Virus record (IMG/VR): IMGVR_UViG_3300012000_000005
Location: 31,462-95,461 of that record
Length of the DNA: 64,000 nucleotides
Direction: 5' to 3' (one strand)
Source: a virus
Numbering within the stretch: position 1 is the stretch's first letter; each line of letters opens with the position of its first letter. Positions 31,426-64,000 of this stretch are shown piece after piece. Below the pieces are notes generated by a model. It ran no database searches. It was given only the letters and a program-made list of their open reading frames with translations, and had not been told where the DNA came from. Both the position numbers and the translations under genes were made by a program.

Positions 31426-32369
31426 CATTAAACGAGATGCAGGAAACGTTAGAGAGGTTAGGCCTTGAAGTCGTATCCACTAGAGGCTCAGAAATCCAAA
31501 GCTATTGTCCAGCACATGTTGAAAGAACAGGTCACGAGGACAGAAACCCATCGTGGTGGATTAACGCTGATACAGGTGCACATATCTGTTTCTCATGCCA
31601 CTACAAAGGTGGACTGCTGTCATTGGTTTCCTATATTCAAAAGTGGGACTTCGACAAATCTAAAGAGTGGCTTAATGACGGGTCATCTAACCTTGCGGCT
31701 TCTTTACAAAAAGCAATCAAACCAAAAAAAGTATTTGAAGACATTACTTACATAACCGAGTCAATGCTTGCGGCTTTTATTGACCCGCCAGCAGATGCAC
31801 TTGCCTCACGCGGTCTTACATTGGCTGCAGCGCAAGAGTATGAAGTTCTATGGAGTGAAAGACACAGCAATTGGATTACTGTTATTCGTGACCCACACAC
31901 CCATAAGTTATTGGGGTGGCAAGAAAAAGGTCACAAGTCTAGATTCTTTAGAAACCAGCCTGTTGGGGTACCAAAGAGCGCAACGTTATTTGGTTACAAG
32001 CAATACAAAGGTGGGGACATGATTATTGTTGAGTCTCCGCTAGATGTAGTAAGAATGGCATCTGTTGGTATCAAAGGTGGGGTCAGCACTTACGGCTCTA
32101 TGGTATCTATGCAACAGTTCAACCTAATGCGTGGAGCCGATAGGGTTATTTTTGCTATGGACAACGATAAGGCTGGTCAAGACTCGTCAGTAAACTTGTT
32201 GATTCTTGCACAGGAATATGGCACAGACGCTTGGTTCTTTAATTACAGCAACACGGACATGAAGGATGTTGGCGCTATGAGCAAGTCTGAGATAGTCTAT
32301 GGATTAGAGAACGCACGCCATATGGTAAATGGAAAGAAAGCACTAAGAGGAGAACATGCCGTTACGTAG
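31422..32369 (+). CDS. dnaG: DNA primase with CHC2 zinc finger and Toprim domain
   Basis: 315 residues. The N-terminal zinc finger is CPAH...CFSCHYKGG (Cys-His-Cys-Cys). The Toprim core begins MIIVESPLDVVRMASVGIKG with the catalytic Glu, and has the FAMDNDKAGQD DxD pair for magnesium. It is compact, like the single-chain primases of phages, lacking the long DnaB-binding C-terminus of bacterial DnaG. It directly follows the helicase, with which it probably forms the primosome. Confidence 0.9.
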   Translation: MTLNEMQETLERLGLEVVSTRGSEIQSYCPAHVERTGHEDRNPSWWINADTGAHICFSCHYKGGLLSLVSYIQKWDFDKSKEWLNDGSSNLAASLQKAIKPKKVFEDITYITESMLAAFIDPPADALASRGLTLAAAQEYEVLWSERHSNWITVIRDPHTHKLLGWQEKGHKSRFFRNQPVGVPKSATLFGYKQYKGGDMIIVESPLDVVRMASVGIKGGVSTYGSMVSMQQFNLMRGADRVIFAMDNDKAGQDSSVNLLILAQEYGTDAWFFNYSNTDMKDVGAMSKSEIVYGLENARHMVNGKKALRGEHAVT

Positions 32370-35401: not shown

Positions 35402-35989
35402 GTGGTTAGACTAAACAGGATATATACCAAGACTGGTGATACAGGCACGGCCGCACTCATGGGCGACGGACGCCATCCCAAAGAAGATATTATCTTTGAT
35501 GCAATTGGCACAGTAGACGAAGCTAACTCTTCTATTGGTGTTGCTATGTGTTATGTAGAAAACGAAGATGTACATAAAGTATTAAAAAATGTACAGAATG
35601 ATTTATTTGATTTAGGCGCTGACCTGGCCTATCCAAAAGCTTCTGTAACTGAAGCACACATTACTTATCTTGAAACCACTATAGATTTTTATAACTCTCA
35701 GTTAAAACCTTTAGAGTCATTTGTTTTACCTTCAGGCACCAAGGCTTCGTCCTACCTACATCTTTCTAGAACAATAGTACGGAGAGCTGAGAGGGATGTA
35801 TGGGATGCCGTAAAACAGCGGGAGACCAACCCCCTCATAGCCAAGTACCTTAATAGGCTTTCAGACCTGCTATTTGTCCTAGCTAGATACATGAATCATG
35901 GGGACGATATACTGTGGGAACCAGCAGTAAAACTATTGGCAGATGGTGTAATTGGCAACACGCCTGGCTCTGAACCAGGAGACGTCTAG
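35402..35989 (+). CDS. ATP:cob(I)alamin adenosyltransferase (PduO type)
   Basis: 195 residues. ATP-binding N-terminus IYTKTGDTGTAALMGDGR, then DAIGTVDEANSSIG, the helix SRTIVRRAERDVWDAV (conserved RRAER) and YLNRLSDLLFVLARYMNH are the diagnostic PduO/MMAB motifs. The enzyme makes adenosylcobalamin, the cofactor of the class II ribonucleotide reductase at 54847. The GTG start lies one base after the 3' end of tRNA-Gly with no ribosome site; processing of that tRNA would leave a nearly leaderless mRNA. The last 17 residues (after WEPAVKL) are encoded within tRNA-Gln and are non-conserved. Confidence in the family is high. Confidence 0.92.
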   Translation: MVRLNRIYTKTGDTGTAALMGDGRHPKEDIIFDAIGTVDEANSSIGVAMCYVENEDVHKVLKNVQNDLFDLGADLAYPKASVTEAHITYLETTIDFYNSQLKPLESFVLPSGTKASSYLHLSRTIVRRAERDVWDAVKQRETNPLIAKYLNRLSDLLFVLARYMNHGDDILWEPAVKLLADGVIGNTPGSEPGDV

Positions 35990-41881: not shown

Positions 41882-42212
41882 GGGACAAAGGGAGTCGAAG
41901 AAACACGAGGACCGATTAGCAAAAGCAATCGGCGGTCAGCGTAATGCTGGCAGCGGTGCGTTTTGGAGTCGGAAGGGTGATGTTCGGTCTAAAGACTTGT
42001 TAATAGAACACAAGTGGACTGGCAAAGCCACCGTGACTATCAAGGCCACGGTTCTAGAGAAGATTGTTAAGGAAGCAATCCTTGACAGTCGTACTCCAGT
42101 ACTCGGTTTCAGTCTCAACAATGAAAACTATGTGATGTTATTGGAGGACGATTTTCTAGAACTACGCCAGAAAACTTTGGAGTGTAGTTGTTCGAAGATA
42201 TCGGCCACTTAG
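41871..42212 (+). CDS. PD-(D/E)XK endonuclease, Holliday-junction resolvase-like
   Basis: 113 residues. AIGGQRNAGSGAFWSRKGDVRS is followed by DLLIEHKWT, giving the D-(x)n-ExK active site of small resolvase-like nucleases; the GxRNxGSGAF(W)xRKGDV layout is typical of phage members. It overlaps RecA by 11 bases. Basic N-terminus (MKSKGQRESKKHEDRLAK). A RuvC-type enzyme is also encoded nearby, so the two may act on different DNA structures. Confidence 0.75.
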   Translation: MKSKGQRESKKHEDRLAKAIGGQRNAGSGAFWSRKGDVRSKDLLIEHKWTGKATVTIKATVLEKIVKEAILDSRTPVLGFSLNNENYVMLLEDDFLELRQKTLECSCSKISAT

Positions 42213-42505
42213 AAGGTTGGCGACATCAAGCCAAGTGTCGGGGGATGGACACAGAGCTTTGGTTTCCTCCCAGAGATAAAGCCAAATATAAAAAGATTGC
42301 ATCCGTATCTAAAGCTGTCTGCTTTGGACGTGATGGCTTACCTGAATGCCCAGTGCGTAAGGAATGTTTGCTGTACGCAGAAGCACAAGAAGAGCAACAC
42401 GGTATATGGGGTGGCATGTCGCATCGTGAGCGTAATGCGCTTAAGCGTAAAGCTAAGAAGCACGGCAAAACCCTAGAGGAGTGGATACTTGACGGCGACC
42501 TGTGA
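42188..42505 (+). CDS. whiB: WhiB-family iron-sulfur transcription regulator
   Basis: 105 residues from TTG 42188 (GGAG five bases upstream). Four cysteines in the WhiB pattern: AKCRG, AVCFG, then ECPVRKEC, followed by the GIWGG turn (GIWGGMSHRER) and a basic C-terminus (KRKAKKHGK). WhiB proteins bind a 4Fe-4S cluster and the principal sigma factor and occur only in Actinobacteria and their phages. The second and third Cys are separated by eight residues rather than the common two. It may steer host RNA polymerase to the phage's TANNNT promoters. Confidence 0.93.
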   Translation: MFEDIGHLEGWRHQAKCRGMDTELWFPPRDKAKYKKIASVSKAVCFGRDGLPECPVRKECLLYAEAQEEQHGIWGGMSHRERNALKRKAKKHGKTLEEWILDGDL

Positions 42506-53166: not shown

Positions 53167-53276
53167 GCGAGAAGCCAACTTGCCCTAGAGGGTGCGAGGG
53201 AAATGTATTAGATTACGTAAGCGGAGATGCGTACCTGTGTGCTAAGTGTGGCATCACCTGGAGCAAGCCTAAGTGA
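53163..53276 (+). CDS. Zinc-ribbon micro-protein
   Basis: 37 residues (ATG 53163, TGA 53274-53276), flanked by 4-base overlaps. Four cysteines as CPRGC...CAKC (TCPRGCEGNV; AYLCAKCGITW), a minimal zinc ribbon. GGAGG lies 7-11 bases upstream. Coupled between the HAD-like and the 488-residue gene, it is likely a nucleic-acid or protein-contact module. Confidence 0.65.
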   Translation: MSEKPTCPRGCEGNVLDYVSGDAYLCAKCGITWSKPK

Positions 53277-54739
53277 AGGTTATCTATCTAGGTGCTGAGG
53301 TTCCTTCAAATAGAGTAATACTCGAGGAAACTACCGCAAACCATGTTGGGGTCAGCTACCACCGACTGGTGAGCCGAGGGCTTCCTAAAACCAAAGAGTA
53401 TCTATTAGAAAACTACTTTAATAAAGATTTCTATATTTATGTGCACCCTGGCCTGCCCAAGACGCTGAAGCTCACAGCTGATGAGCTCGAAGAGTTTGCC
53501 GCGGGATACGAGCATTTTGTAGCCGTTAATATAGATAGGCTCAATACTGTATTTGAGATTAACAGCCCTACAATCGACCCAGCTTGGGTAGAGCGTCATC
53601 GTACAAAGGTTTGGTCGGAGTTACCCCCAGGTAAGTTCGTCCCCGTATGGCAGCCCCAGACGGATTTAAACGGCCTTCAGAGGTTAGCGGACTACTATTT
53701 AGATGTCGCAATCCCAGGAGATGCTATAGAAATAGATACAAGACTGGCTAGCGCTACCCGCTTAAACACCAAGCGCCAAGGGACCAGATGGCATGCATTA
53801 GGGTGCGCAAAGCCCGATAACCTTCGGTCTATTCTATTTGAAACCGCAAGTACCTTATCCTGGCTATCGCCAATGATGCACGGAGAAACAATCATTTGGG
53901 ATGGCACAAGGTTAGTCAGGTACCCAAAGAAGATGAAAGAACAAGCAAGACCAAGGTACAAGGCAATCTATGAAAAGGCTGGCTTGGACCTTGATAAGAT
54001 AATCGAGGATGACCCGCAGGAAGTCTGTAAGTTGGCGGTGTGGTCTTATGAACAGTTCGAGATAAGGATGAACAAGATGACCAATAGCCCAGACGACCCG
54101 TTGTTATATGATAATAGCGAGGGGAGAGAAGTGGAGCAAAGTGGGGAAACCAACCCTACCGTATATGATAATAAGGGTATTCATACGCGGAAACTTGAAC
54201 CACGAAATGCTGACGAATATGCCAATCTTCCAGTGTTCGGATTCGATACAAAGAGTGAAGTTGACGCCGACGGTGTCATCAAAGATGTAACCACTGTATC
54301 CTCACACAGCACCTCGCTTAGGGCATGCGATACCTGTTTCGTAGCCGCTAATTGCCCCGCTTTTAAACCACAATCTATGTGTGCTTTCAAGTTACCAGTA
54401 GAAGTAAAGAGTAAAGAACAACTTAAGGCTTTAATCAATGCGGTGATAGAAATGCAGGGACAAAGGGTCGCTTTTATGCGATTTGCTGAAGAAATGAATG
54501 GTGGATACGCTGACCCCAATGTATCTCAAGAGATAGACCGCCTATTCAAATTGATTAAAACAACCAAAGAATTGGACGACTCACGTGAGTTTATTCGCAT
54601 GACTGTAGAGCGCCAAGGAAGCGCAGGTGTGCTAAGTTCTATCTTCGGAGATAAGGCACAAGCGCTTCGTGAGTTGCCAAATGGCGGGCTAAATGAAGAG
54701 CAAACCACCCAGATAATTAAGGGTGCTATCGAAGAATAA
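53273..54739 (+). CDS. Hypothetical protein, possible TGT/DpdA-like TIM barrel with Cys cluster
   Basis: 488 residues from GTG. The N-terminal ~230 residues show barrel-like alternation (HFVAVNIDRLNTVFEINSPT; FVPVWQPQTDLNGLQRLADYY), ending RWHALGCAKPDNLRSILFETAS and TLSWLSPMMHG, split, reminiscent of tRNA-guanine transglycosylase or DpdA proteins that insert 7-deazaguanines into DNA. The C-terminal half has a cysteine cluster (CDTCFVAANC...SMC, near residue 351) and helices. No deazaguanine synthesis genes are in the window. The assignment is speculative. Confidence 0.45.
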   Translation: MKVIYLGAEVPSNRVILEETTANHVGVSYHRLVSRGLPKTKEYLLENYFNKDFYIYVHPGLPKTLKLTADELEEFAAGYEHFVAVNIDRLNTVFEINSPTIDPAWVERHRTKVWSELPPGKFVPVWQPQTDLNGLQRLADYYLDVAIPGDAIEIDTRLASATRLNTKRQGTRWHALGCAKPDNLRSILFETASTLSWLSPMMHGETIIWDGTRLVRYPKKMKEQARPRYKAIYEKAGLDLDKIIEDDPQEVCKLAVWSYEQFEIRMNKMTNSPDDPLLYDNSEGREVEQSGETNPTVYDNKGIHTRKLEPRNADEYANLPVFGFDTKSEVDADGVIKDVTTVSSHSTSLRACDTCFVAANCPAFKPQSMCAFKLPVEVKSKEQLKALINAVIEMQGQRVAFMRFAEEMNGGYADPNVSQEIDRLFKLIKTTKELDDSREFIRMTVERQGSAGVLSSIFGDKAQALRELPNGGLNEEQTTQIIKGAIEE

Positions 54740-54846: not shown

Positions 54847-56874
54847 ATGGCACTGAGTTTCCGACTAGCAGAAGAATTCCTAAAGGACTACCGCAGTAAG
54901 AAAGTACCTTGGGGTTATAAAGATGCGGCGGGTAACTCGGTGGGTGAGATTACTTTCCTTAGAACATACTCCCGACTAAAAGAGGACGGAACTAAGGAGA
55001 CTTGGGTAGATGTATGCCAGCGAGTAATCGAGGGCATGTACTCCTTACAGAAAGACCACTGCAAAACCAATCGTCTACCTTGGAATGACAGCAGAGCTCA
55101 AGCCTCGGCTAAGGAAGCCTTCGACCGTTTATTTAATTTAAAGTGGACACCCCCAGGACGAGGTCTATGGGTTATGGGAACACCACTGGTCAACGAGCAG
55201 AAGAACTCCGCGGCTTTACAGAACTGCGCCTTTGTGTCTACCTCTAGTATGACTAAGTTAGACCCTGCTAAACCGTTTGCTTTCCTCATGGAAGCATCAA
55301 TGTTGGGCGTGGGAGTCGGATTTGATGACAAGGGTGCAGACAAGGACTTTTTTATTTACGAGCCAAAACTGCCTGAGGTCATAATCCAGATTCCAGATAC
55401 CAGGGAGGGATGGGTGGAGTCAGTAAGTACCCTGATTAACTCCTATTTAAAACCAGAACAGCCTGTTTATGTATTTGATTATTCTTTAATTAGACCAGCG
55501 GGTACCCCCATCAAAACCTTCGGCGGCACAGCTGCGGGCCATGAGCCTCTGGAGAAGCTCCACAATCACGTACGACGCATCTTTAATAGAAAGAGGGCGG
55601 GTTCTAAATTAACAAGGGTAGATATAGCAGATTTGGGTAATCTAATTGGAGTCTGCGTTGTATCTGGCAATGTCCGCCGCAGTGCTGAGCTGTTGATGGG
55701 CCGACTTGATGACCAAGACTTTTTAAATTTAAAGAACGCAAAGGCTTTCCCTGAGCGCAACTCCTACGAAGCTGCAGCTCCTGGCTGGGCCTGGATGTCT
55801 AACAACTCTGTAGAAGTATCTGTGGGTTCTAAATTAGACCACATAGTTGAGGGTATTGCTTTGAACGGTGAGCCTGGTGTTATCTGGATGGATGTTACTC
55901 GTCAGTATGGCCGACTCATAGACCCAATCAATAATAAAGACCATCGAGCTGCTGGGTACAATCCGTGCGCTGAACAATCGCTGGAATCTTTTGAGTGCTG
56001 TACTCTGGTTGAAACTTACCTCAATCGCCATGAATCTAAAGAAGATTACCTACGTACTCTAAAGTTTGCCTATCTCTATGCAAAGACTGTAACATTGCTT
56101 CCTACCCACTGGGAAGAGACTAACGCAATCATGCAACGCAATCGTCGTATTGGAACCTCTATGTCTGGAGTGGCTAACTTCGCTGACCTCGTAGGTATGC
56201 CTGTACTTCGTGAGTGGATGGACGAGGGGTATAAAACAATTCAAGACTACGACCGCACATATTCAGAGTGGCTTGGCATTCGAGAATCAATTAAAACTAC
56301 CACCGTTAAGCCTAGCGGTACCGTTTCTATATTAGCGGGAGAATCTCCTGGGGTTCACTGGACTCCTGGCGGCAAGTACTTCCTACGTGCAATCCGTTTC
56401 TCTAATGAAGACCCAATGCTACCTTTGTTTAAAGCGTCGGGTTATAAAATAGAAAAGGCTTCCGAATCTCCTAAGACAACTAGCGTCGTTTACTTCCCCA
56501 TCAAATCAGAGGCGCTACGGTCAGAAAAAGATGTTTCAATCTATGAAAAGATGTCGCTCGCGGCTACCGCACAGCGATATTGGTCAGACAACAGCGTCAG
56601 CGTTACAGTATCCTTTAATGCAAATACTGAAAAAGACGCCGTAGGAACAGTTCTACACATGTTTGACGGGCAACTCAAAACCGTTTCCTTCTTACCAATG
56701 GGGAACGAGACTTACCCGCAAATGCCCTACACACAGATAACCGAAGCAGAATACGAAAAGTATGCCTTCAAGTTATTGCCTATTGACTTTGTTGACGTTT
56801 ATGCAGGTATGGCCGCGGACGCAATCGGTGAAAAGTATTGCTCAACTGATTATTGCGAAATCCCACAACAATGA
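54847..56874 (+). CDS. nrdJ: Adenosylcobalamin-dependent (class II) ribonucleotide reductase
   Basis: 675 residues; AGAGGAGAGAAT precedes ATG. Radical/active-site motif NPCAEQ (C374, E376) with the ECC pair (384-385), N-terminal Cys in LQNCAFV (C127), and C-terminal CSTDYC (C665, C670, Cx4C) match the monomeric triphosphate reductase of the Lactobacillus leichmannii type (Cys408/Glu410, Cys731/Cys736). It makes dNTPs using AdoCbl, needing no oxygen and no small subunit. The cofactor could come from the adenosyltransferase at 35402. Its stop overlaps the ATG of a transcobalamin-like gene. Confidence 0.95.
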   Translation: MALSFRLAEEFLKDYRSKKVPWGYKDAAGNSVGEITFLRTYSRLKEDGTKETWVDVCQRVIEGMYSLQKDHCKTNRLPWNDSRAQASAKEAFDRLFNLKWTPPGRGLWVMGTPLVNEQKNSAALQNCAFVSTSSMTKLDPAKPFAFLMEASMLGVGVGFDDKGADKDFFIYEPKLPEVIIQIPDTREGWVESVSTLINSYLKPEQPVYVFDYSLIRPAGTPIKTFGGTAAGHEPLEKLHNHVRRIFNRKRAGSKLTRVDIADLGNLIGVCVVSGNVRRSAELLMGRLDDQDFLNLKNAKAFPERNSYEAAAPGWAWMSNNSVEVSVGSKLDHIVEGIALNGEPGVIWMDVTRQYGRLIDPINNKDHRAAGYNPCAEQSLESFECCTLVETYLNRHESKEDYLRTLKFAYLYAKTVTLLPTHWEETNAIMQRNRRIGTSMSGVANFADLVGMPVLREWMDEGYKTIQDYDRTYSEWLGIRESIKTTTVKPSGTVSILAGESPGVHWTPGGKYFLRAIRFSNEDPMLPLFKASGYKIEKASESPKTTSVVYFPIKSEALRSEKDVSIYEKMSLAATAQRYWSDNSVSVTVSFNANTEKDAVGTVLHMFDGQLKTVSFLPMGNETYPQMPYTQITEAEYEKYAFKLLPIDFVDVYAGMAADAIGEKYCSTDYCEIPQQ

Positions 56875-57538: not shown

Positions 57539-57688
57539 CTATTTACATGAGGTACAAAAGTTCTGCACTCGTAGGTTCTCTTTGGTTACCACCATAGTTC
57601 TTGAACAATGGTAGCAAGGCACTAATTTAAATGCCTTATCCGCTCTCCTACGAAGGAACAACGCTACGAGTTCTTCTTTAATCTTCAT
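57539..57688 (-). CDS. Small zinc-ribbon protein (last gene of minus operon)
   Basis: 49 residues from ATG 57688, chosen because it overlaps the acidic micro-gene; longer starts are inside that gene. MKIKEELVALFLRRRADKAF is helical and basic; CYHC (residues ~26-29) and CTSC at the C-terminus form a zinc ribbon. Likely nucleic-acid binding; role unknown. Confidence 0.55.
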   Translation of the reverse strand: MKIKEELVALFLRRRADKAFKLVPCYHCSRTMVVTKENLRVQNFCTSCK

Positions 57689-57779
57689 AGTCGTCATCAT
57701 CTCCTTCCTCATAAATCTCTTCATCGGGGATGTCGGGCATCGGCCTATCCCACAATGGCTCAGGTACTATCCTACTCAA
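57678..57779 (-). CDS. Acidic micro-protein
   Basis: 33 residues from TTG 57779 to TAA 57678, almost half acidic in the C-terminal part (PDIPDEEIYEEGDDDDYED). CAGGAG near the end of the previous gene provides the ribosome site eight bases upstream. Overlaps the next gene by 11 bases. It may mimic nucleic acid or bind the zinc-ribbon partner. Low-confidence but consistent spacing. Confidence 0.45.
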   Translation of the reverse strand: MSRIVPEPLWDRPMPDIPDEEIYEEGDDDDYED

Positions 57780-57781
57780 TT

Positions 57782-58087
57782 TTAAGACTCCTGTTTATAA
57801 ATTAGAGTACCTTGAATCTTTACTGGCTTTCCGTTCTCATCTTCGTTAACAACAGCGAGCTTAACGCTCTTGCGTGGGGTCAACTGCTGAACCCTCTCTT
57901 TAATATAACGCTTACCTGCGCTGGCGTTAGCCCACGCGGTTACGTTGTTATCAATTTCAATGTCGTCATATCCACCGAGTCCGTTGCTACGACTTTCGGT
58001 AATGGTATAAGTGACCTTCCATGCGCCACCTTTAACTGTGTTTTTCATGAGTGTTGCTTTGAACGTGCGTTCTACTTTGCGAGCCAT
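57782..58087 (-). CDS. Hypothetical beta-rich protein
   Basis: 101 residues from ATG 58087 (AAAGGAGACAAC directly upstream; an in-frame ATG at 58108 is less likely). MARKVERTFKATLMKNTVKG, then WKVTYTITESRSNGLGGYDD and a helix AWANASAGKRYIKERVQQLT. Composition suggests a small beta-barrel. It overlaps the glycosylase gene by 16 bases. No family recognised. Confidence 0.6.
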   Translation of the reverse strand: MARKVERTFKATLMKNTVKGGAWKVTYTITESRSNGLGGYDDIEIDNNVTAWANASAGKRYIKERVQQLTPRKSVKLAVVNEDENGKPVKIQGTLIYKQES

Positions 58088-58494
58088 GTTGTCTCCTTTG
58101 TTGGCCAATAGTACGGTAATGTTTCATCTACTTTGGGAAAGTATTTGCGATAATGCTCGGGCAACTTTCTTACGAGGTTGGCTTGGTGCGACGTGTGGAA
58201 CTCGTCGTGACCTAGCCATGCTGGCAATATTACCCTATCTTTAGGGAATTGCTCTAACAGGGAATCTTGGAAGCCTCGTTCGCGCCACTCGACACAAACT
58301 AATCTGCCGTATTCGTATAGTGCGCCTTCATAATCTCTCCACATAAGAACGGCGGGGTGGTTTCGCCAACCTTTCGTCATACCTGCTAATACACGCATGA
58401 CTTGGTAGGCTTCTACTCTTTGCTTACCTAACCTCTTATCGTCGAGAACTCTCGCGCTCTCTTTAAAGTCAGGAAGCGGTAGGAAAGTCTGAAT
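58072..58494 (-). CDS. Pyrimidine-dimer DNA glycosylase-like protein (MSMEG_6728-type), ATT start
   Basis: 140 residues. IQTFLPLPDFKESARVLDDKRLGKQRVEAYQV (split) continues with GWRNHPAVLMWRDYEGALYEYG and LPAWLGHDEFHTSHQANLVRK, ending YYWP; this is the actinobacterial pyrimidine-dimer glycosylase/endonuclease V-like family. Relatives begin MQTFLPYPDF, and here the matching first codon is ATT at 58494, with AAGGAG (58503-58508) exactly eight bases upstream. An in-frame ATG at 58398 would remove the conserved N-terminus. UV repair would protect phage DNA. Confidence 0.75.
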   Translation of the reverse strand: MQTFLPLPDFKESARVLDDKRLGKQRVEAYQVMRVLAGMTKGWRNHPAVLMWRDYEGALYEYGRLVCVEWRERGFQDSLLEQFPKDRVILPAWLGHDEFHTSHQANLVRKLPEHYRKYFPKVDETLPYYWPTKETTWLAK

Positions 58495-58506: not shown

Positions 58507-58650
58507 TTAGAACGGTGGCTGGTCACCCTTTGGTGGCAAGCACATTACGCAGAACGCTACACCCGCAGTAACCGCTTCGTCAATATCCATGCCGTCAGGA
58601 ACTATAATTTCTCCGCGGTCATACTCTACAAAACACTTTGGACACTCCAT
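58507..58650 (-). CDS. Small zinc-ribbon protein
   Basis: 47 residues (MECPKCFVEYDRGEI...VAFCVMCLPPKGDQPPF). CPKC and CVMC pairs form a zinc ribbon. GAGG upstream. It ends 12 bases before the ATT start of the glycosylase gene, whose ribosome site follows its stop. Confidence 0.6.
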   Translation of the reverse strand: MECPKCFVEYDRGEIIVPDGMDIDEAVTAGVAFCVMCLPPKGDQPPF

Positions 58651-58659
58651 AACTAACCC

Positions 58660-58803
58660 TCACTCACTCTCTTTTTTAATAATAGGTAACTCTTTTTCTA
58701 TATTTAAACTCTCTTGTTGGCAAGTACAACCGCCACACCCGCAGCGTTGAGCTGGTTCTTCAGCGGGGGTATAAAGAATCTCATTTCCGACGTTATCTCT
58801 CAT
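58660..58803 (-). CDS. Cysteine-cluster micro-protein
   Basis: 47 residues with a compact CGCGGCTC cluster (residues ~21-28), which could bind a metal such as copper or zinc, followed by a charged C-terminal helix (QESLNIEKELPIIKKESE). GGAGAG upstream of ATG 58803; overlaps the preceding gene by 4 bases. Function unknown. Confidence 0.55.
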   Translation of the reverse strand: MRDNVGNEILYTPAEEPAQRCGCGGCTCQQESLNIEKELPIIKKESE

Positions 58804-59237
58804 TTATTCTCTCCACTTTCAAATAGACTCTCTCCACCTTCTATTTTTCCTTCGGCTAGAGTTATTTTCTCCCCGTATCCTTGCCACACGATATTTCCTT
58901 CGCTGTCGTGGATAGTGATTAATCTTTCATTTTCTACCCATTGATGAAGCGCATGACTATCTACTAAAACTCTAACGCTGGCTTCGGGCTCTCCCTTGTA
59001 TAGGTTGCCGTCGGGTAGTTTAATCATTGAATCCCACTCGCCATTGTTTGCTCTCTCGATAGCCTCTAAGCATGGGTCTATCATGGCTAGTGGTATTGGT
59101 TTCTCGAATCTTGTTTGAAGGTGATTTCCAACCTCGTTCCATAACGGCGGTAATTCCTCTAAGCCGTCGTCGCCTCTCTCGCTAATAATCTCAGCGTCAA
59201 TAATCTCGTTACCGTAATTGTCGTACTCAGTTACCAT
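58800..59237 (-). CDS. Hypothetical acidic protein
   Basis: 145 residues from ATG 59237, which overlaps the upstream gene's stop; the longer version would lie inside that gene. Acidic, mixed fold (VTEYDNYGNEIIDAEIISER; PLAMIDPCLEAIERANNGEW). The C-terminus has a beta hairpin (RLITIHDSEGNIVWQGYG). No family recognised. Confidence 0.55.
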   Translation of the reverse strand: MVTEYDNYGNEIIDAEIISERGDDGLEELPPLWNEVGNHLQTRFEKPIPLAMIDPCLEAIERANNGEWDSMIKLPDGNLYKGEPEASVRVLVDSHALHQWVENERLITIHDSEGNIVWQGYGEKITLAEGKIEGGESLFESGENK

Positions 59238-59379
59238 CAGGGTTCGAATCTTTCTTGTAGTCGGGCTTGTACTTGGGCTTTCTATTATATAACTTCTTGT
59301 TTCTAATTGGAACACTCGCATTACTACGGCGTAACTCGAGGATACGCCGTAGTTGCTCTGCGGTCTTTGAGAATCTCAC
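59227..59379 (-). CDS. Small basic hypothetical protein
   Basis: 50 residues from GTG 59379 (GAGTGAG overlap with the upstream stop). Highly Arg/Lys-rich (MRFSKTAEQLRRILELRRSN; KKLYNRKPKYKPDYKKDSNP). Possibly nucleic-acid binding. Both ends are coupled. Confidence 0.5.
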   Translation of the reverse strand: MRFSKTAEQLRRILELRRSNASVPIRNKKLYNRKPKYKPDYKKDSNPDGN

Positions 59380-59468
59380 TCGTCGTCGGTTTCGTCGGGC
59401 TCGATACACTTGTGGTTATCCCACGCGTAAGGGCTCTGCTCGTCACCGCACCATGTACACGTTGCCAT
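59376..59468 (-). CDS. Zinc-finger micro-protein
   Basis: 30 residues: MATCTWCGDEQSPYAWDNHK, then CIEPDETDDE. CTWC, then HKC could complete a four-ligand zinc site. ATG 59468 overlaps the previous stop (TAATG) and its stop overlaps the next GTG. Among the shortest plausible genes here. Confidence 0.5.
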   Translation of the reverse strand: MATCTWCGDEQSPYAWDNHKCIEPDETDDE

Positions 59469-59779
59469 TACTCACCGTCTAATCCGTAACCGTTTTCAAG
59501 GTCACGTTCGTCGGCTTCGTCGAATATAGGCGCTCGTAATCCTAGCCTATCTGCGTACGGCTCGATACTATCAACCGCCATATCTATCTCGCCTCTTGTG
59601 TCGTGGTAATCGAATAACTCGGTTAAGCGCTCGTCTGTATCGTTTCGTAGCGCCATAAGGTCAAGGCTTGCGCCTATCGCGGTATCGATTAGGTAGATAG
59701 CGTCGCTATCTCCTTCCATATATTTCTTTACTACGTCTTGGTATTGACCCGATAGTAGTAAGTCTTTCATAGCACCCAT
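59468..59779 (-). CDS. Hypothetical acidic helical protein
   Basis: 103 residues; AAAGGG nine bases upstream of ATG 59779. Helical and acidic (MKDLLLSGQYQDVVKKYMEG; DERLTELFDYHDTRGEIDMA). No recognised domain. It overlaps the zinc-finger micro-gene at its 3' end. Confidence 0.5.
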   Translation of the reverse strand: MGAMKDLLLSGQYQDVVKKYMEGDSDAIYLIDTAIGASLDLMALRNDTDERLTELFDYHDTRGEIDMAVDSIEPYADRLGLRAPIFDEADERDLENGYGLDGE

Positions 59780-59780
59780 A

Positions 59781-59981
59781 TTAGTTTCCCTTTCGTACTT
59801 GGTACTGCTTCGAAGTATCCTCTAAGTAGAACGAATAGTCAATAGCGGTATGCGCTAAGTTGGTTAGATATTCTGCTTGAGGGTGGTCACTCACTTCGGT
59901 TGCGCCGACTATCTTGAGTAGCGTATCCCTTAGTAGTTGTTTGTAATCTATATTTGTTTCCTCTGCTATTTCTATTTCCAT
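59781..59981 (-). CDS. Small acidic helical protein
   Basis: 66 residues (MEIEIAEETNIDYKQLLRDT...), helix-rich with a central TEVSDHPQAEYLTNLAHTAI stretch. Stop is one base from the next ATG. First small gene after the VWA gene. No recognised family. Confidence 0.5.
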   Translation of the reverse strand: MEIEIAEETNIDYKQLLRDTLLKIVGATEVSDHPQAEYLTNLAHTAIDYSFYLEDTSKQYQVRKGN

Positions 59982-60065: not shown

Positions 60066-61970
60066 TTAGCGCCTTACGACCTTCATCTGTGATTTAACTA
60101 GGTCTTTGGCTACGTCGAGAATATCTTTGGCTTCGTCAACGACCCTAAAGAACTTAGCGCCATGACGTAAGGTAATCATGTATTGGTCGTAACGCTCTCG
60201 GTCGTTATCTTTGACCCATTGAAGGCTACCTAAGAATATGACACTCGTTAGAACGTTGTTGGCGTTCATGCGAGAGATAATACCGTCGTTAATCTCTGTA
60301 CTATCCCACTCGCCGTCGGTAATCATGAAGCATATCTTGATACCTTTACGGCTTGCGTTAAGTATGCGCTCGGCTTCGATAAGCGCCTTGAACGGATTAG
60401 TGCTACCGCTACTATCAACGAATCTAAACTCGTCGGGCTTAGCCTTATCGTCTGCCTTGTAGATTAGACGGCTATCGTGGTTGAACTTATAGACGGTTAC
60501 TCGACCGTTGATACGCTCGATACCGCGCTTTAGAATCCACGCCGTTTCCATTGTCTTATAGATACGAGCGCCCATGCTACCCGAGGTATCTACTAGGATT
60601 ACCGCTTCAATATCATTAGACGAGTTACCTTCACTCCAACGGTCGAATAACTTATTGATGTCATTTACGTCGGCGTTCATGGCTCGAGATACGTTAAGCC
60701 TACCGCTTTCTACCTCTAACTCCCACGCAGGGTCGTTATCGATACGAATACGCTCTAACTCTACGGCGAATCTACGAGCGCTCGCCGTAGCGTTCATAGG
60801 TACGCTCATGTTTTTATAGTTGGCAGGTCGAACACCTGAACGCATGACGTCGTTATCCATAATCGCTCTACGAACTTCGGCGGTATCACGACGTACGTTT
60901 TCGTCGTTTCTTATATTAGATAACTCGGAGTTAATCTTATCTTTGAGTAACTTCTCGCTATCTGTATATTCGTGTTGTACGTCTTGAGTAGTAATCGAAT
61001 CGTCAACCGTACCGTAACCTTGCCCTACGTTATCGTCATTGATGTCGTCGAACTTCTCGGTCTGTGTAGATTTCTCGGTTGCGTTAGCCTTATCTTGTAG
61101 TCGGTCTTGTTCCTTCTGACCTTCTGCTCGACCCTTTCTCATCATTTGGCGGTCGATATGACCGTCGCATTGACCTTTACCGTTTTGTGGTACTTGAGGT
61201 GGTGGGTTTTGCTCATCATTACCGACAACCTTAGCGAACTCTGCGATAAGCCTCTTGGCTCTATCGTAATCGCGTGGGAAGGCGAGTGTGCGGTACTCAT
61301 GGATAATATCCGCTAGGAATATCGCTGTGGCTTTGCCGAACTGCTGTGAGAATCGCGTGGCGATTTCCTGACGAATATCGTAATCTAAGTATTTTCTACC
61401 TGTGATTAATATAAATAAGGAAGCCCACTCACTTGAATCACCTTTGAGTATGTAGTCAAGCGTTGAAGCCTCTACGAACGGTTGAACGGCAGGATACTTA
61501 GCGATAAGTAAGCGCTCGATACGACTATCCTCGAGTATGTTCATGGCTCGACGATATTGGTTTTCCATGACCCACTTACCTAACTCGGAGTTTTCGCGTG
61601 GCGTATAAAGAACGTGTGCGACCTCATGGTAGTTGAATCCATGAAGGCTAACGATAGTGTTATCGTCAATATCCTCGAGTAGATGAGCGTTGAACACGAT
61701 AGCCTTACCGTCATTGTAGGCGGTAGTTTCTAGGTCGGGATTATCGTCAACCCTGACCTCTATCTTGTCACCTGTGATAATACTATCGGCGCGTGAGTAG
61801 ATAACACCCACGCTCGATAGTTTTTCTTTGTGCGCTTGATAAGCCTCTTGCTTGGCTTCGATTAGGTCTTGGTCGATTTCCATTTTGCCTAACTCGTCGT
61901 TCCATTGATAGGCACTATGAATCTCGCGGAGTAGGTCGTCGGTAGAATCTGCTTGGTAGCGGTATCCCAT
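60066..61970 (-). CDS. VWA-domain protein with metallopeptidase-like N-terminus (DUF2201-like)
   Basis: 634 residues. The N-terminal part has HEVAH (residues 115-119, HExxH zinc motif) followed by ILEDSRIERL, a candidate gluzincin-type glutamate site. Residues ~270-340 are an acidic, disordered linker. The C-terminal VWA domain has the MIDAS motif DTSGSMG (~460) and ITDGEWD. Metallopeptidase-like plus VWA is the DUF2201 layout, paired with MoxR AAA+ ATPases. The ATPase is just upstream (two-base gap). It may act as a metal-dependent chaperone or processing factor. CobT also has a VWA domain, but the HExxH part differs. Confidence 0.8.
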   Translation of the reverse strand: MGYRYQADSTDDLLREIHSAYQWNDELGKMEIDQDLIEAKQEAYQAHKEKLSSVGVIYSRADSIITGDKIEVRVDDNPDLETTAYNDGKAIVFNAHLLEDIDDNTIVSLHGFNYHEVAHVLYTPRENSELGKWVMENQYRRAMNILEDSRIERLLIAKYPAVQPFVEASTLDYILKGDSSEWASLFILITGRKYLDYDIRQEIATRFSQQFGKATAIFLADIIHEYRTLAFPRDYDRAKRLIAEFAKVVGNDEQNPPPQVPQNGKGQCDGHIDRQMMRKGRAEGQKEQDRLQDKANATEKSTQTEKFDDINDDNVGQGYGTVDDSITTQDVQHEYTDSEKLLKDKINSELSNIRNDENVRRDTAEVRRAIMDNDVMRSGVRPANYKNMSVPMNATASARRFAVELERIRIDNDPAWELEVESGRLNVSRAMNADVNDINKLFDRWSEGNSSNDIEAVILVDTSGSMGARIYKTMETAWILKRGIERINGRVTVYKFNHDSRLIYKADDKAKPDEFRFVDSSGSTNPFKALIEAERILNASRKGIKICFMITDGEWDSTEINDGIISRMNANNVLTSVIFLGSLQWVKDNDRERYDQYMITLRHGAKFFRVVDEAKDILDVAKDLVKSQMKVVRR

Positions 61971-61972
61971 GA

Positions 61973-63427
61973 TTAGATTACCGCCTGATGTTGAGTGATA
62001 GGGATATTGAAGGTGGTAACACCGTCGCTAACCTTATCATCTAGCATTTCTACTTTAGCCTCGTCGGTCTTAATTGAAAGTACCGCTAAGCCTAACTCCT
62101 CTGCGATATTATCGCGGTGAGTGTTGACTACCAACCGTACCGCCGAACGTTCCTCATCACCCTCGAAGGAGTTGATGTAGTTGTATGTAGCGAACTCCAT
62201 GCCGAAGGCTTTGGCATTAGTTACGAACGCTACGAGCGAACGAGTTGAGATAGGAGTGACGAGCGTACCTTTATTGAACTCGTCGCGTAGTTGATTTGCC
62301 ATTTCAACGAGCGCTCTATTCTTGAGTAACTTCTGCTCGATAGGCTTGTCGTATGGGAACGATAGTCTTATTGAGAATCGGTCTGCGAGTGCTTGGTTGA
62401 GTGGTCGAGTGCCACGATAGTCGGGGTTCATGTCACCGATAATCAATAGATTAGGGTGAGCCTTGATTACCTCGCCACCGTTTTCCATTAGTTGAATCTC
62501 ACGACGATAATCGAGTAGTGAGAATATGAAAGTTAAGAATCGCTCGGGCGCGAAGTTAATCTCGTTGAATAGGAGTACGCCACCGTTACGAACTATCTCT
62601 GTAACTGCGCCGTCTTGCCACCTAAAGTGACCGTCGGGAGTTGGTATCCAACGACCGACTAGGTGAGAGGCTTCTAGCCCGATATGGCATGCGACGTTGA
62701 AGTACCTCATGCCTCGAGCGCTTGCGTATGCTTGAGCGCTCATAGTCTTACCGCTTCCTGCGTGACCTTCAATTAGAACGTTCATGCCGTTGGCGAGTGC
62801 GTGGTCGTACACCTGATAATCGGTTAAGCCGTCAACGACCTTGCGGTTGATGTAGGTATCTGCCCACTTCTTGTCGGGTACGCTTACCATAGCATTGACG
62901 AGCGCTTGGCTTGTCGTTGGTACGGTTGGTCGTTCGATAACCTTAGTAGTGGTGGTTGCCACCTGTGCTACTTGCGCGATAGGAGTATCAACACCCTTCA
63001 CGATAGGCTTAATAGATACACCCTGATTACGTCGCTTGTCGGTGATGTAATCGTTGAGTGAGTTGTCGCCGATTTCTAGGCGAGCGATAAGGCTACCTGC
63101 GACCTCATTGTGCGCCTCGGGCGCGGTTGCGGTAGGAGTGGTTTCTAGGGCATATAGCGCCTTGATACCGACGTTAGTGATTTGACCTAGTTTCATCATG
63201 TCGCGGTCGCGGTCGCTAATAACGACGGCGCATGGTTCATGAGAGATAGGGTTATTTGGTAGTTGTGTGAGTGATACTTGCTTCCACGCCTGACCTCGAC
63301 CTTTCATGCCGTTCGATACGCGGTGGTATAGATATACCTCGGTATCGTCGGATAAGATGAGTGTCTGCGCTTGGGCAGGTAATCCCTCGAGTTGGTCGTC
63401 TGATACGACGAGTAACGCGAGTGACAT
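61973..63427 (-). CDS. MoxR-type AAA+ ATPase
   Basis: 484 residues. N-terminal ~215 residues are a phage-specific extension of unknown function. Walker A GHAGSGKT (~residue 223), then ASHLVGRWIPTPDGHFRWQDG, Walker B VLLFNEINFAPE, sensor ADRFSIRLSFPYD, and the C-terminal helix bundle identify a MoxR/CobS-class AAA+ protein. Such ATPases work with VWA partners to insert metals or remodel protein complexes. The VWA gene follows immediately, so the pair probably forms one machine. The first gene of the minus operon. Confidence 0.85.
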   Translation of the reverse strand: MSLALLVVSDDQLEGLPAQAQTLILSDDTEVYLYHRVSNGMKGRGQAWKQVSLTQLPNNPISHEPCAVVISDRDRDMMKLGQITNVGIKALYALETTPTATAPEAHNEVAGSLIARLEIGDNSLNDYITDKRRNQGVSIKPIVKGVDTPIAQVAQVATTTTKVIERPTVPTTSQALVNAMVSVPDKKWADTYINRKVVDGLTDYQVYDHALANGMNVLIEGHAGSGKTMSAQAYASARGMRYFNVACHIGLEASHLVGRWIPTPDGHFRWQDGAVTEIVRNGGVLLFNEINFAPERFLTFIFSLLDYRREIQLMENGGEVIKAHPNLLIIGDMNPDYRGTRPLNQALADRFSIRLSFPYDKPIEQKLLKNRALVEMANQLRDEFNKGTLVTPISTRSLVAFVTNAKAFGMEFATYNYINSFEGDEERSAVRLVVNTHRDNIAEELGLAVLSIKTDEAKVEMLDDKVSDGVTTFNIPITQHQAVI

Positions 63428-63970: not shown

Positions 63971-64000
63971 AAGCCTACCGCCGAAGGAGCGGTAGGCTTT
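63971..64000. terminator. Terminator-like hairpin at the window edge
   Basis: AAGCCTACCGC-CGAAGGA-GCGGTAGGCTT followed by T at the end of the window. It can act in either direction, for a gene beyond the window. The downstream T-run is cut off. Confidence 0.65.

Follow-up and report, generated by a model that had tools for sequence, protein, structure and literature searches.

What is the function of a gene pair that joins a MoxR-type AAA+ ATPase to a protein carrying both a metallopeptidase motif and a VWA domain? The question is raised by two adjacent genes in a 64,000-nucleotide stretch of viral DNA (hereafter the window; positions 31,462 to 95,461 of IMG/VR record IMGVR_UViG_3300012000_000005). 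The upstream gene encodes a 484-residue ATPase of the MoxR/CbbQ class (61973-63427, minus strand), and the downstream gene encodes a 634-residue metallopeptidase-like/VWA partner (60066-61970, minus strand). An ORF check of the window places both exactly where a preliminary description had put them, with an intergenic distance of 2 nt. Such pairs are widespread in phages, where most are labelled as vitamin B12 genes. Gordonia phage annotations call them AAA-ATPase/CobT-like, those of cyanophages cobS/peptidase, and two readings have been published: cobaltochelatase subunits (PMC8651126) and a chaperone with a metallopeptidase (PMC7824862). Judged by sequence, the pair in the window is a further member of this module already known in phages.

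Related viral loci were collected using the AAA+ motifs alone as seed. The partner lies directly downstream of the ATPase at 79 of these 80 loci, and at the remaining one the contig stops 253 bp after the ATPase gene. All 79 partners keep HExxH. The preliminary description was to be abandoned if the two genes lacked a conserved association or if their motifs were inactive in all relatives, and neither is the case. Comparison with two relatives gives a dN/dS of 0.11-0.23. Two other searches yielded little: a scan of genome contigs recovered just seven weak loci, and ICP2 CobS had no match among viral contigs.

The ATPase matches Pfam AAA_5 (E=1.4e-22) and has the features of its class: a Walker A motif (GHAGSGKT at 221), a Walker B-like motif with a catalytic glutamate (VLLFNE at 284-289, where N replaces the usual D), sensor 1 (N334), and a candidate arginine finger (R350). 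Residues G221, G224, K227, E289, N334 and R350 are invariant across 57 relatives. The preliminary description assigned this protein a 215-residue phage-specific N-terminus. The predicted structure divides that region instead into a folded domain of some 130 residues, mostly beta (approximately 1-130), and a linker (approximately 140-180, modelled with low confidence at 148-174), with the AAA+ core starting near residue 180. Nearer metagenomic relatives share the extra domain. In a fold search, the nearest solved structures for the AAA+ core are CbbQ2 and NorQ. RavA is not among the sequence matches at E values up to 0.01 nor among the top 50 folds. The nearest solved MoxR/VWA relatives of the pair are CbbQ, NorQ and Midasin rather than RavA/ViaA.

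The partner consists of an N-terminal gluzincin-like domain, a charged linker (approximately 250-335) and a C-terminal VWA domain. Its HExxH motif, HEVAH at 115-119, would be expected by chance in this protein with a frequency of about 0.014. It is followed by NILEDSRIE at 144-152, in which E147 is the candidate third metal ligand, 28 residues on from the last histidine of the motif. The MIDAS is complete (D461-x-S463-x-S465, T524, D552). Among 69 diverse relatives, H115, E116, H119, E147, R150, S465, T524 and D552 are invariant and D461 and S463 are at least 90% conserved, so that both motifs claimed earlier for this protein are in place. The VWA domain (457-587, E=7.6e-5) falls slightly below the Pfam cut-off, but its assignment is supported because the modelled domain folds like the VWA domain of NorD and the MIDAS domains of Midasin. 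In the model (pLDDT 88, pTM 0.78), HExxH and E147 sit on two helices, 103-122 and 140-158. Gluzincins typically have HExxH, with a catalytic glutamate, plus a further glutamate downstream, and the partner shows this signature, with the second glutamate on the next helix, in both sequence and predicted structure.

The partner matches PHROG 459 'peptidase' (E=5e-9), and the N-domains of the window family, the cyanophage 'peptidase' and the phage-plasmid 'CobT' match one another (hhalign 95-97%, E 8e-10 to 2e-8). A Foldseek search of the PDB was dominated by the VWA domain; only VWA matches appeared near the top, with no named zincin and no solved structure for the N-terminal domain, and phmmer against the PDB gave nothing useful. 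No DUF2201 model is present among the Pfam matches at E values up to 0.1. An intact HExxH site is found in 12 of 13 named viral or plasmid partner proteins. A relative on an Acinetobacter phage-plasmid has lost the motif (DQEVAK) and still keeps the pair; therefore, catalysis is not needed in every case.

Several known phage systems share this architecture. For group 2.2 jumbo phages, Iyer et al. 2021 (PMC7824862) likewise described a MoxR-class ATPase next to a vWA protein whose N-terminal domain is a metallopeptidase, and the window has each of these elements: an adjacent AAA+ gene and a partner with N-terminal HExxH and C-terminal VWA. The likeness is one of description, not of accession. 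The group 2.2 pair belongs to large T4-like phages and was assigned to virion assembly, whereas the window pair comes from a 95-kb record with relatives of approximately 80-105 kb, and its ATPase has the extra folded N-domain. The Gordonia (Bendigovirus) and Brevibacterium Cantare pairs have the same gene order and type of spacing as the window and all of the motifs, and their partners are 26-30% identical to that of the window over nearly the whole length. Their ATPases lack the extra N-domain, and no B12-dependent reductase was found in these genomes.

Cyanophage CobS (T4-GC 150) and 'peptidase' (T4-GC 146, PHROG 459) form the same two-gene module, and the peptidase N-domain is homologous to that of the window partner (hhalign E=8e-10). 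Loci seeded with cyanophage cobS carry the partner in 70 of 80 cases, the other ten being at contig edges, and HEVGH...EDxRIE is found in all 57 cyanophage partners with a complete N-terminus. In contrast to the window, the cyanophage module has the peptidase first, with small genes between it and cobS, and its CobS showed no extra domain of the kind with about 130 residues. The two AAA+ cores are approximately 26-28% identical.

Could the pair be what its usual annotation says? Viral CobS and CobT would then join host CobN and boost cobalamin for a B12-dependent ribonucleotide reductase. This reading was published for tailed viruses of archaea and bacteria (PMC8651126) and repeated elsewhere (PMC9503304, PMC13390420, PMC11288001). 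Aerobic cobaltochelatase CobS/CobT does share the AAA+ plus VWA-MIDAS architecture, the ATPase is weakly similar to CobS (PDB CobS, E=9e-7), and the VWA domains of some relatives match Pfam CobT_C strongly. However, the ATPase scores 22.5 bits against the TIGR01650 CobS model, for which the cut-off is 558.55, and the window partner has no match to TIGR01651 or PF06213; parts of the CobT models are matched by more CobT-like relatives from RHEph10 and a Klebsiella phage-plasmid. The N-domain of CobT retains a VExARxE helix that aligns with LEDxRIE of the phage partners, and all five real CobTs keep the downstream glutamate. Yet HExxH is absent from these five and present in 79 of 79 window-type partners. 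CobT also requires CobN, which a host could supply; none of 22 viral or plasmid records (the window phage and 21 others) encodes it. Furthermore, no CobN-family match turned up in an E. coli control genome, although relatives of the pair reside on E. coli phage-plasmids. Of 5426 E. coli genomes, 219 carry a gene closely related to that of the partner, always on a plasmid.

The B12 connection of the window is also narrower than the 'B12 pathway' of the preliminary description. Two B12-linked genes are present outside the pair: a PduO-type cob(I)alamin adenosyltransferase (35402-35989, plus strand) and an AdoCbl-dependent ribonucleoside-triphosphate reductase (54847-56874, plus strand; TIGR02505, 369.5 bits, over cut-off) that is convergent with the small-gene operon. 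They favour a cobalamin role but do not constitute a pathway. Class II reductases occur in 28 of 29 viral-contig records, but this co-occurrence is barely informative because all of these are metagenomic relatives of the window from one lineage with shared synteny. Isolates must therefore decide: no class II reductase was found in pair-bearing GMA6, DalanDe, Cantare, ICP2 or Forza. Adenosyltransferase exceeds its cut-off in just two of 37 records, and the pair can occur with neither gene. Cultured acI actinobacteria lack a cobalamin pathway (PMC5301498), and they are a plausible, inferred host type for this phage. After the comparisons of HExxH, CobN, model scores and co-occurrence, the CobS/CobT relation that the preliminary description wished to see tested is not supported as a function. 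Cobaltochelatase is rejected as the main reading and is now highly improbable.

Fold relations could also fit a different kind of metal chemistry. The closest solved folds of the AAA+ core and VWA domain belong to NorQ/NorD and CbbQ/CbbO, and the pair might be a metalloenzyme activator like these or CoxD/CoxE, with the HExxH-E site holding or transferring metal and cutting no peptide. The metal-ligand set is more tightly conserved than the flanking sequence, and one relative does without HExxH. We nevertheless consider such a role unlikely. E116 is invariant and would be superfluous in a pure metal store, and the host phages share no common enzyme partner. In the matched regions of NorQ/NorD and CbbQ/CbbO, whose partners are host metalloenzymes, no metallopeptidase-like domain was seen. 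Of the preliminary MoxR-VWA chaperone or metal-insertase reading, the chaperone-like character is supported by sequence and fold, and the CobS/CobT function is not.

Gene context says little about function by itself. In ICP2, Cantare, cyanophages, RHEph10 and phage-plasmids, the neighbours of the pair are replication genes and not those of the virion. In ICP2, it lies in a plus-strand unit with primase, helicase and polymerase, and the head-tail-connector/packaging/fibre unit runs in the opposite direction. In Cantare, MazG/ThyX and DnaE/RecA flank it, and the head and tail genes lie elsewhere, at 0.5-38 kb. Cyanophages carry it between gp46/47 and the gp45 clamp, and in RHEph10 and phage-plasmids of E. 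coli, Klebsiella and Acinetobacter it adjoins dnaE. These arrangements bear on the proposal, made for group 2.2 jumbo phages, that the pair acts as a chaperone in virion assembly and processes structural proteins by proteolysis. That proposal draws on a comparison with p618/p892, an AAA+/VWA pair of Acidianus two-tailed virus (PMC7824862), whose VWA protein matches the partner weakly in fold (rank 40, E=3.6e-5). The distance from head and tail genes in ICP2 and Cantare and the position within the cyanophage replication cluster make it improbable. A related AAA+ gene on several plasmids is a further point against it, but a weak one, since some of these are phage-plasmids.

The clade of the window departs from this pattern: here the pair occupies a separate accessory operon, outside the replication block, with DUF932 (TIGR03299), DUF4192 and Api92-like genes. 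Accessory regions of phages and plasmids typically carry such genes. The setting could suit a role in host takeover or anti-defence, in which the pair would remodel or destroy one particular protein complex of the host, and MoxR-VWA modules are known in conflict systems (PMC7159879). PADLOC, however, gave no match to known defence families, and a conserved-core position in all T4-like cyanophages (PMC3037559) better suits a core function than a strain-specific weapon. We regard this role as very unlikely. Known defence families, RavA/ViaA and DUF2201 were all dropped as identities of the pair for want of a match.

We therefore turn to a reading that is, on balance, just probable from sequence and models: the pair may be an ATP-driven, gluzincin-like remodelling or proteolysis machine of the early-to-middle phase, and no cobaltochelatase. 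The AAA+ protein would assemble into a MoxR/CbbQ-type ring. The partner would dock on this ring through its MIDAS-bearing VWA domain and offer a client to it, and the N-terminal site (HExxH with Glu 28 residues on) would cut the client or bind metal to act on it. Activity would fall in the early-to-middle replication phase, not in virion assembly; no published expression timing of cyanophage cobS was found in the literature searched.

A broader claim is possible, though doubtful. Phage cobS and cobT/peptidase genes of cyanophages, actinophages, haloarchaeal viruses and enterobacterial phage-plasmids might not be B12 genes at all. They would all encode a single family of ATP-powered, MIDAS-gated metalloproteases, whose task would be to clear or process proteins while the phage genome replicates, and bacterial CobT would be a relative that has lost the protease site. 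SPRTN/Wss1 with p97 would work in a similar way, with no kinship to the phage pair. What is at stake is an annotation in wide use: T4-like cyanophages have 'cobS' among their core genes (PMC3037559), and ecological surveys count cobST among viral auxiliary metabolic genes for vitamin B12 (PMC8651126, PMC13390420). We argue that much of this viral cobS/cobT annotation is functionally wrong, because the gluzincin-like site is conserved in the partners and lost in real CobT, and because relatives reside on E. coli plasmids while the control genome has no CobN.

Downstream of the pair, the preliminary description counted about ten small genes, many with zinc ribbons. A small-gene operon is indeed present, with about eight genes supported, of which only three have Cys clusters, fewer than that wording implied. 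All are on the minus strand, and their conservation was counted over the loci of 79 relatives. Four have no assigned family: those encoding proteins of 66 residues (59781-59981, 19 of 79 loci), 103 residues (59468-59779, 19 of 79), at most 173 residues (58800-59321, 20 of 79; relatives suggest about 140) and 108 residues or slightly fewer (57782-58108, 46 of 79). The Cys-cluster genes encode a 47-residue protein with a CGCGGCTC cluster (58660-58803, 5 of 79) and two zinc-ribbon-like proteins (CxxC...CxxC) of 47 residues (58507-58650, 19 of 79) and 61 residues (57539-57724, 25 of 79). The suggestion that these micro-proteins are clients of the pair was rejected, because most small genes do not extend beyond the closest relatives, whereas the pair is also kept beside other neighbours. 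The remaining one is an MSMEG_6728-family gene (58072-58494, 57 of 79 loci; Pfam Pyr_excise, pyrimidine-dimer glycosylase-like), which probably starts with ATT at 58494 and has ATG in a relative.

The MoxR-VWA pair reported in the preliminary description is real and was well described, but pairs of this kind were already known; the novelty lies in a test that tells apart their two published readings. The 484-residue AAA+ ATPase (61973-63427, - strand) matches the Pfam family AAA_5 (E=1.4e-22) as well as PHROG 249 'porphyrin biosynthesis' (E=6e-50). In its 634-residue partner (60066-61970, - strand), whose open reading frame begins 2 nt downstream, a VWA domain is recognised (E=7.6e-5), and the HExxH region gives a short but significant hit to PHROG 459 'peptidase' (E=5e-9). 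Both reading frames had been placed exactly. The window covers bases 31462-95461 of a viral record 95,461 bases long. Each gene has a dN/dS of 0.11-0.23 against two relatives and is thus under purifying selection.

Lack of a conserved gene association, or inactive motifs in all relatives, had been named as evidence against the pair; neither was seen. Among 80 viral loci collected with AAA+ motifs alone, so that the partner's own motifs played no part in selection, 79 encode a same-strand partner directly downstream of the ATPase, and in the remaining locus the contig stops 253 bp past the ATPase. HExxH is present in all 79 partners (63 by strict pattern, 16 read from the sequences); one full-length partner, at locus L138, lacks the standard DxSxS. 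Residues H115, E116, H119, E147, R150, S465, T524 and D552 are invariant in 69 non-redundant partners, as are G221, G224, K227, E289, N334 and R350 in 57 ATPases. The Walker B Asp is replaced by Asn in the window ATPase and about half of its family, with the catalytic Glu kept (44 NE, 32 DE and 3 unmatched among 79 ATPases).

Two opposed readings of such pairs have been published. Liu et al. 2021 hold that viral cobST takes over host CobN and that cobT was 'mistakenly annotated as a peptidase' (PMC8651126). For a MoxR-vWA pair that includes an N-terminal metallopeptidase domain, Iyer et al. 2021 propose a role in virion assembly (PMC7824862). HExxH is absent from five of five real CobT proteins (Sinorhizobium, Rhizobium, Cereibacter, Pandoraea and Sphingomonas), all of which keep a VExARxE helix that aligns with LEDxRIE of the viral partners. 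Because this helix is kept and the Pfam CobT N-terminal model matches the N-domains of RHEph10 and Klebsiella phage-plasmid proteins, the two families are probably homologous, although hhalign gives no significant match when the CobT N-domain is compared directly with the rest. Judged by sequence, CobT looks like the family that lost the HExxH site. Since the viral proteins have this site and real CobT does not, the phrase 'mistakenly a peptidase' is unsupported by sequence. Searches for CobN in 22 viral or plasmid records found none, and the E. coli control genome has no CobN-family protein; among 5426 complete E. coli genomes, 219 nevertheless have a gene closely related to that of the partner, solely on plasmids. 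As a function, the CobS/CobT relation put forward for testing is disfavoured by the missing HExxH in CobT and by the lack of CobN in the records searched. The test favours an ATP-driven remodelling or proteolysis machine, with proteolysis putative. In such a machine, the partner would dock on the AAA+ protein, and a client would be proteolysed during infection.

The AlphaFold2 model of the partner, built with a 69-row alignment (pLDDT 88, pTM 0.78), puts HExxH on the helix spanning residues 103-122 and E147 on that of residues 140-158. Gluzincins carry HExxH on one helix and a Glu on another, and the modelled placement agrees with this expected arrangement. Among solved structures, the VWA domain is closest in fold to the VWA of NorD and the MIDAS domain of Midasin. 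In a search of a viral structure library, VWA proteins of uncultured phages align with the full length of the partner; further matches are those of Cantare, Gordonia GMA7, GMA3 and haloarchaeal tailed viruses. In the ATPase model (pLDDT 88, pTM 0.59), an N-domain predicted with confidence (about 1-130) is joined by a disordered linker to an AAA+ core, for which CbbQ2 and NorQ are the closest folds.

The pair is widespread. A tblastn search with the partner found 16 phage records, from Gordonia and Brevibacterium phages, where it is annotated as 'CobT-like' or 'von Willebrand factor protein'. The ATPase search found 446, chiefly cyanophage 'CobS', whose companion, read from the neighbouring genes, is the 'peptidase' T4-GC 146 with HExxH and MIDAS. 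Both motifs also occur in the 'CobT' or 'cobalamin biosynthesis' companions in Vibrio ICP2, Rhizobium RHEph10 and Actinomycetia DSL-LC01, and in an unnamed VWA protein of Gordonia Forza. AAA+ matches are not always paired: in Mithridates and Pumpernickel, the open reading frames tested near the match are not HExxH-VWA proteins. Cyanophage loci seeded with cobS contain the partner in 70 of 80 cases, the other 10 being contig edges, and HEVGH...EDxRIE is found in 57 of 57 complete partner N-termini; the same partner check gave 6/6 for RHEph10-like loci. The N-domains of the window family, the cyanophage peptidase and the phage-plasmid proteins match one another by hhalign (95-97%, E 8e-10 to 2e-8), and that of DSL-LC01 matches the window family at 91%. 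Those of ICP2 and Forza, each alone, give no significant hhalign match, so their homology rests on shared motifs.

Enterobacterial phage-plasmids also carry the pair. In an Acinetobacter baumannii phage-plasmid (locus L195, 3934-5856) the pair and MIDAS are kept and DQEVAK replaces HExxH, a natural site loss parallel to CobT. A Salmonella IncA/C-type conjugative plasmid (L188) has an AAA+ (CbbQ-like) gene followed by Bet, YqaJ exonuclease, DUF3150 and VWA genes, another MoxR-VWA set, adjoining recombination genes.

In ICP2, the pair lies in a + strand unit directly ahead of primase, helicase and polymerase, with head-tail connector, packaging and fibre genes in an opposite, - strand unit. In Cantare it falls between nucleotide-metabolism genes and DnaE/RecA, with the last of the annotated tail genes about 9 kb away; it is between gp46/47 and gp45 in cyanophages, and beside dnaE in RHEph10 and three phage-plasmids. 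These repeated replication-gene neighbours are circumstantial evidence that the pair acts in the early-to-middle, replication phase rather than in virion assembly. In the window's own clade, the pair occupies a separate accessory operon. In relatives (loci L023, 4274-5299, and L057, 12698-14332), the genes flanking the pair include DUF932 (TIGR03299), DUF4192 and Api92-like ones.

What had been called a B12 pathway consists of an AdoCbl-dependent ribonucleotide reductase (54847-56874, + strand; TIGR02505, 369.5 bits) and a PduO-type cobalamin adenosyltransferase (35402-35989, + strand; TIGR00636), a means of using scavenged cobalamin rather than of making it. The adenosyltransferase gene sits between tRNA genes. 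The reductase is present in every viral-contig relative searched except the GMA6 record, and in DSL-LC01. GMA6, DalanDe, Cantare, ICP2 and Forza have no RTPR-type or over-cut-off NrdJ match, and the sub-cut-off matches in cyanophages and phage-plasmids are probably class I reductases. Only 2 of 37 records have an adenosyltransferase match above the cut-off, whereas the reductase is near-universal in the window's lineage. A WhiB-family regulator (42188-42505, + strand; PF02467, E=4.6e-18) and the hosts of relatives suggest an actinobacterial host. The cobalamin pathway is missing from cultured acI freshwater actinobacteria (PMC5301498). Adjoining the reductase is a 488-residue protein (53273-54739, + strand) with a C-terminal Cys cluster, CDTCFVAANCPAFKPQSMC; it has no match in Pfam or NCBIfam and is kept beside the reductase in all four relatives' loci listed.

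Downstream of the pair is a same-strand set of small genes convergent with the reductase gene, as first described, but it comprises about eight genes, and only three have Cys clusters. Across 79 relatives' loci their presence ranges from 5 to 57, the MSMEG_6728-family gene being highest; they are neighbours and no fixed component of the pair system. This gene (58072-58494, - strand; NF038085, Pyr_excise) has an apparent ATT start at 58494, and relative L023 has ATG at the equivalent site (MQTFLPLPDF); ATG-only calling shortens it, dropping the N-terminal part. Upstream of the operon, just inside the contig end, is a strong terminator-like hairpin of 12 pairs (63971-63999, - strand).
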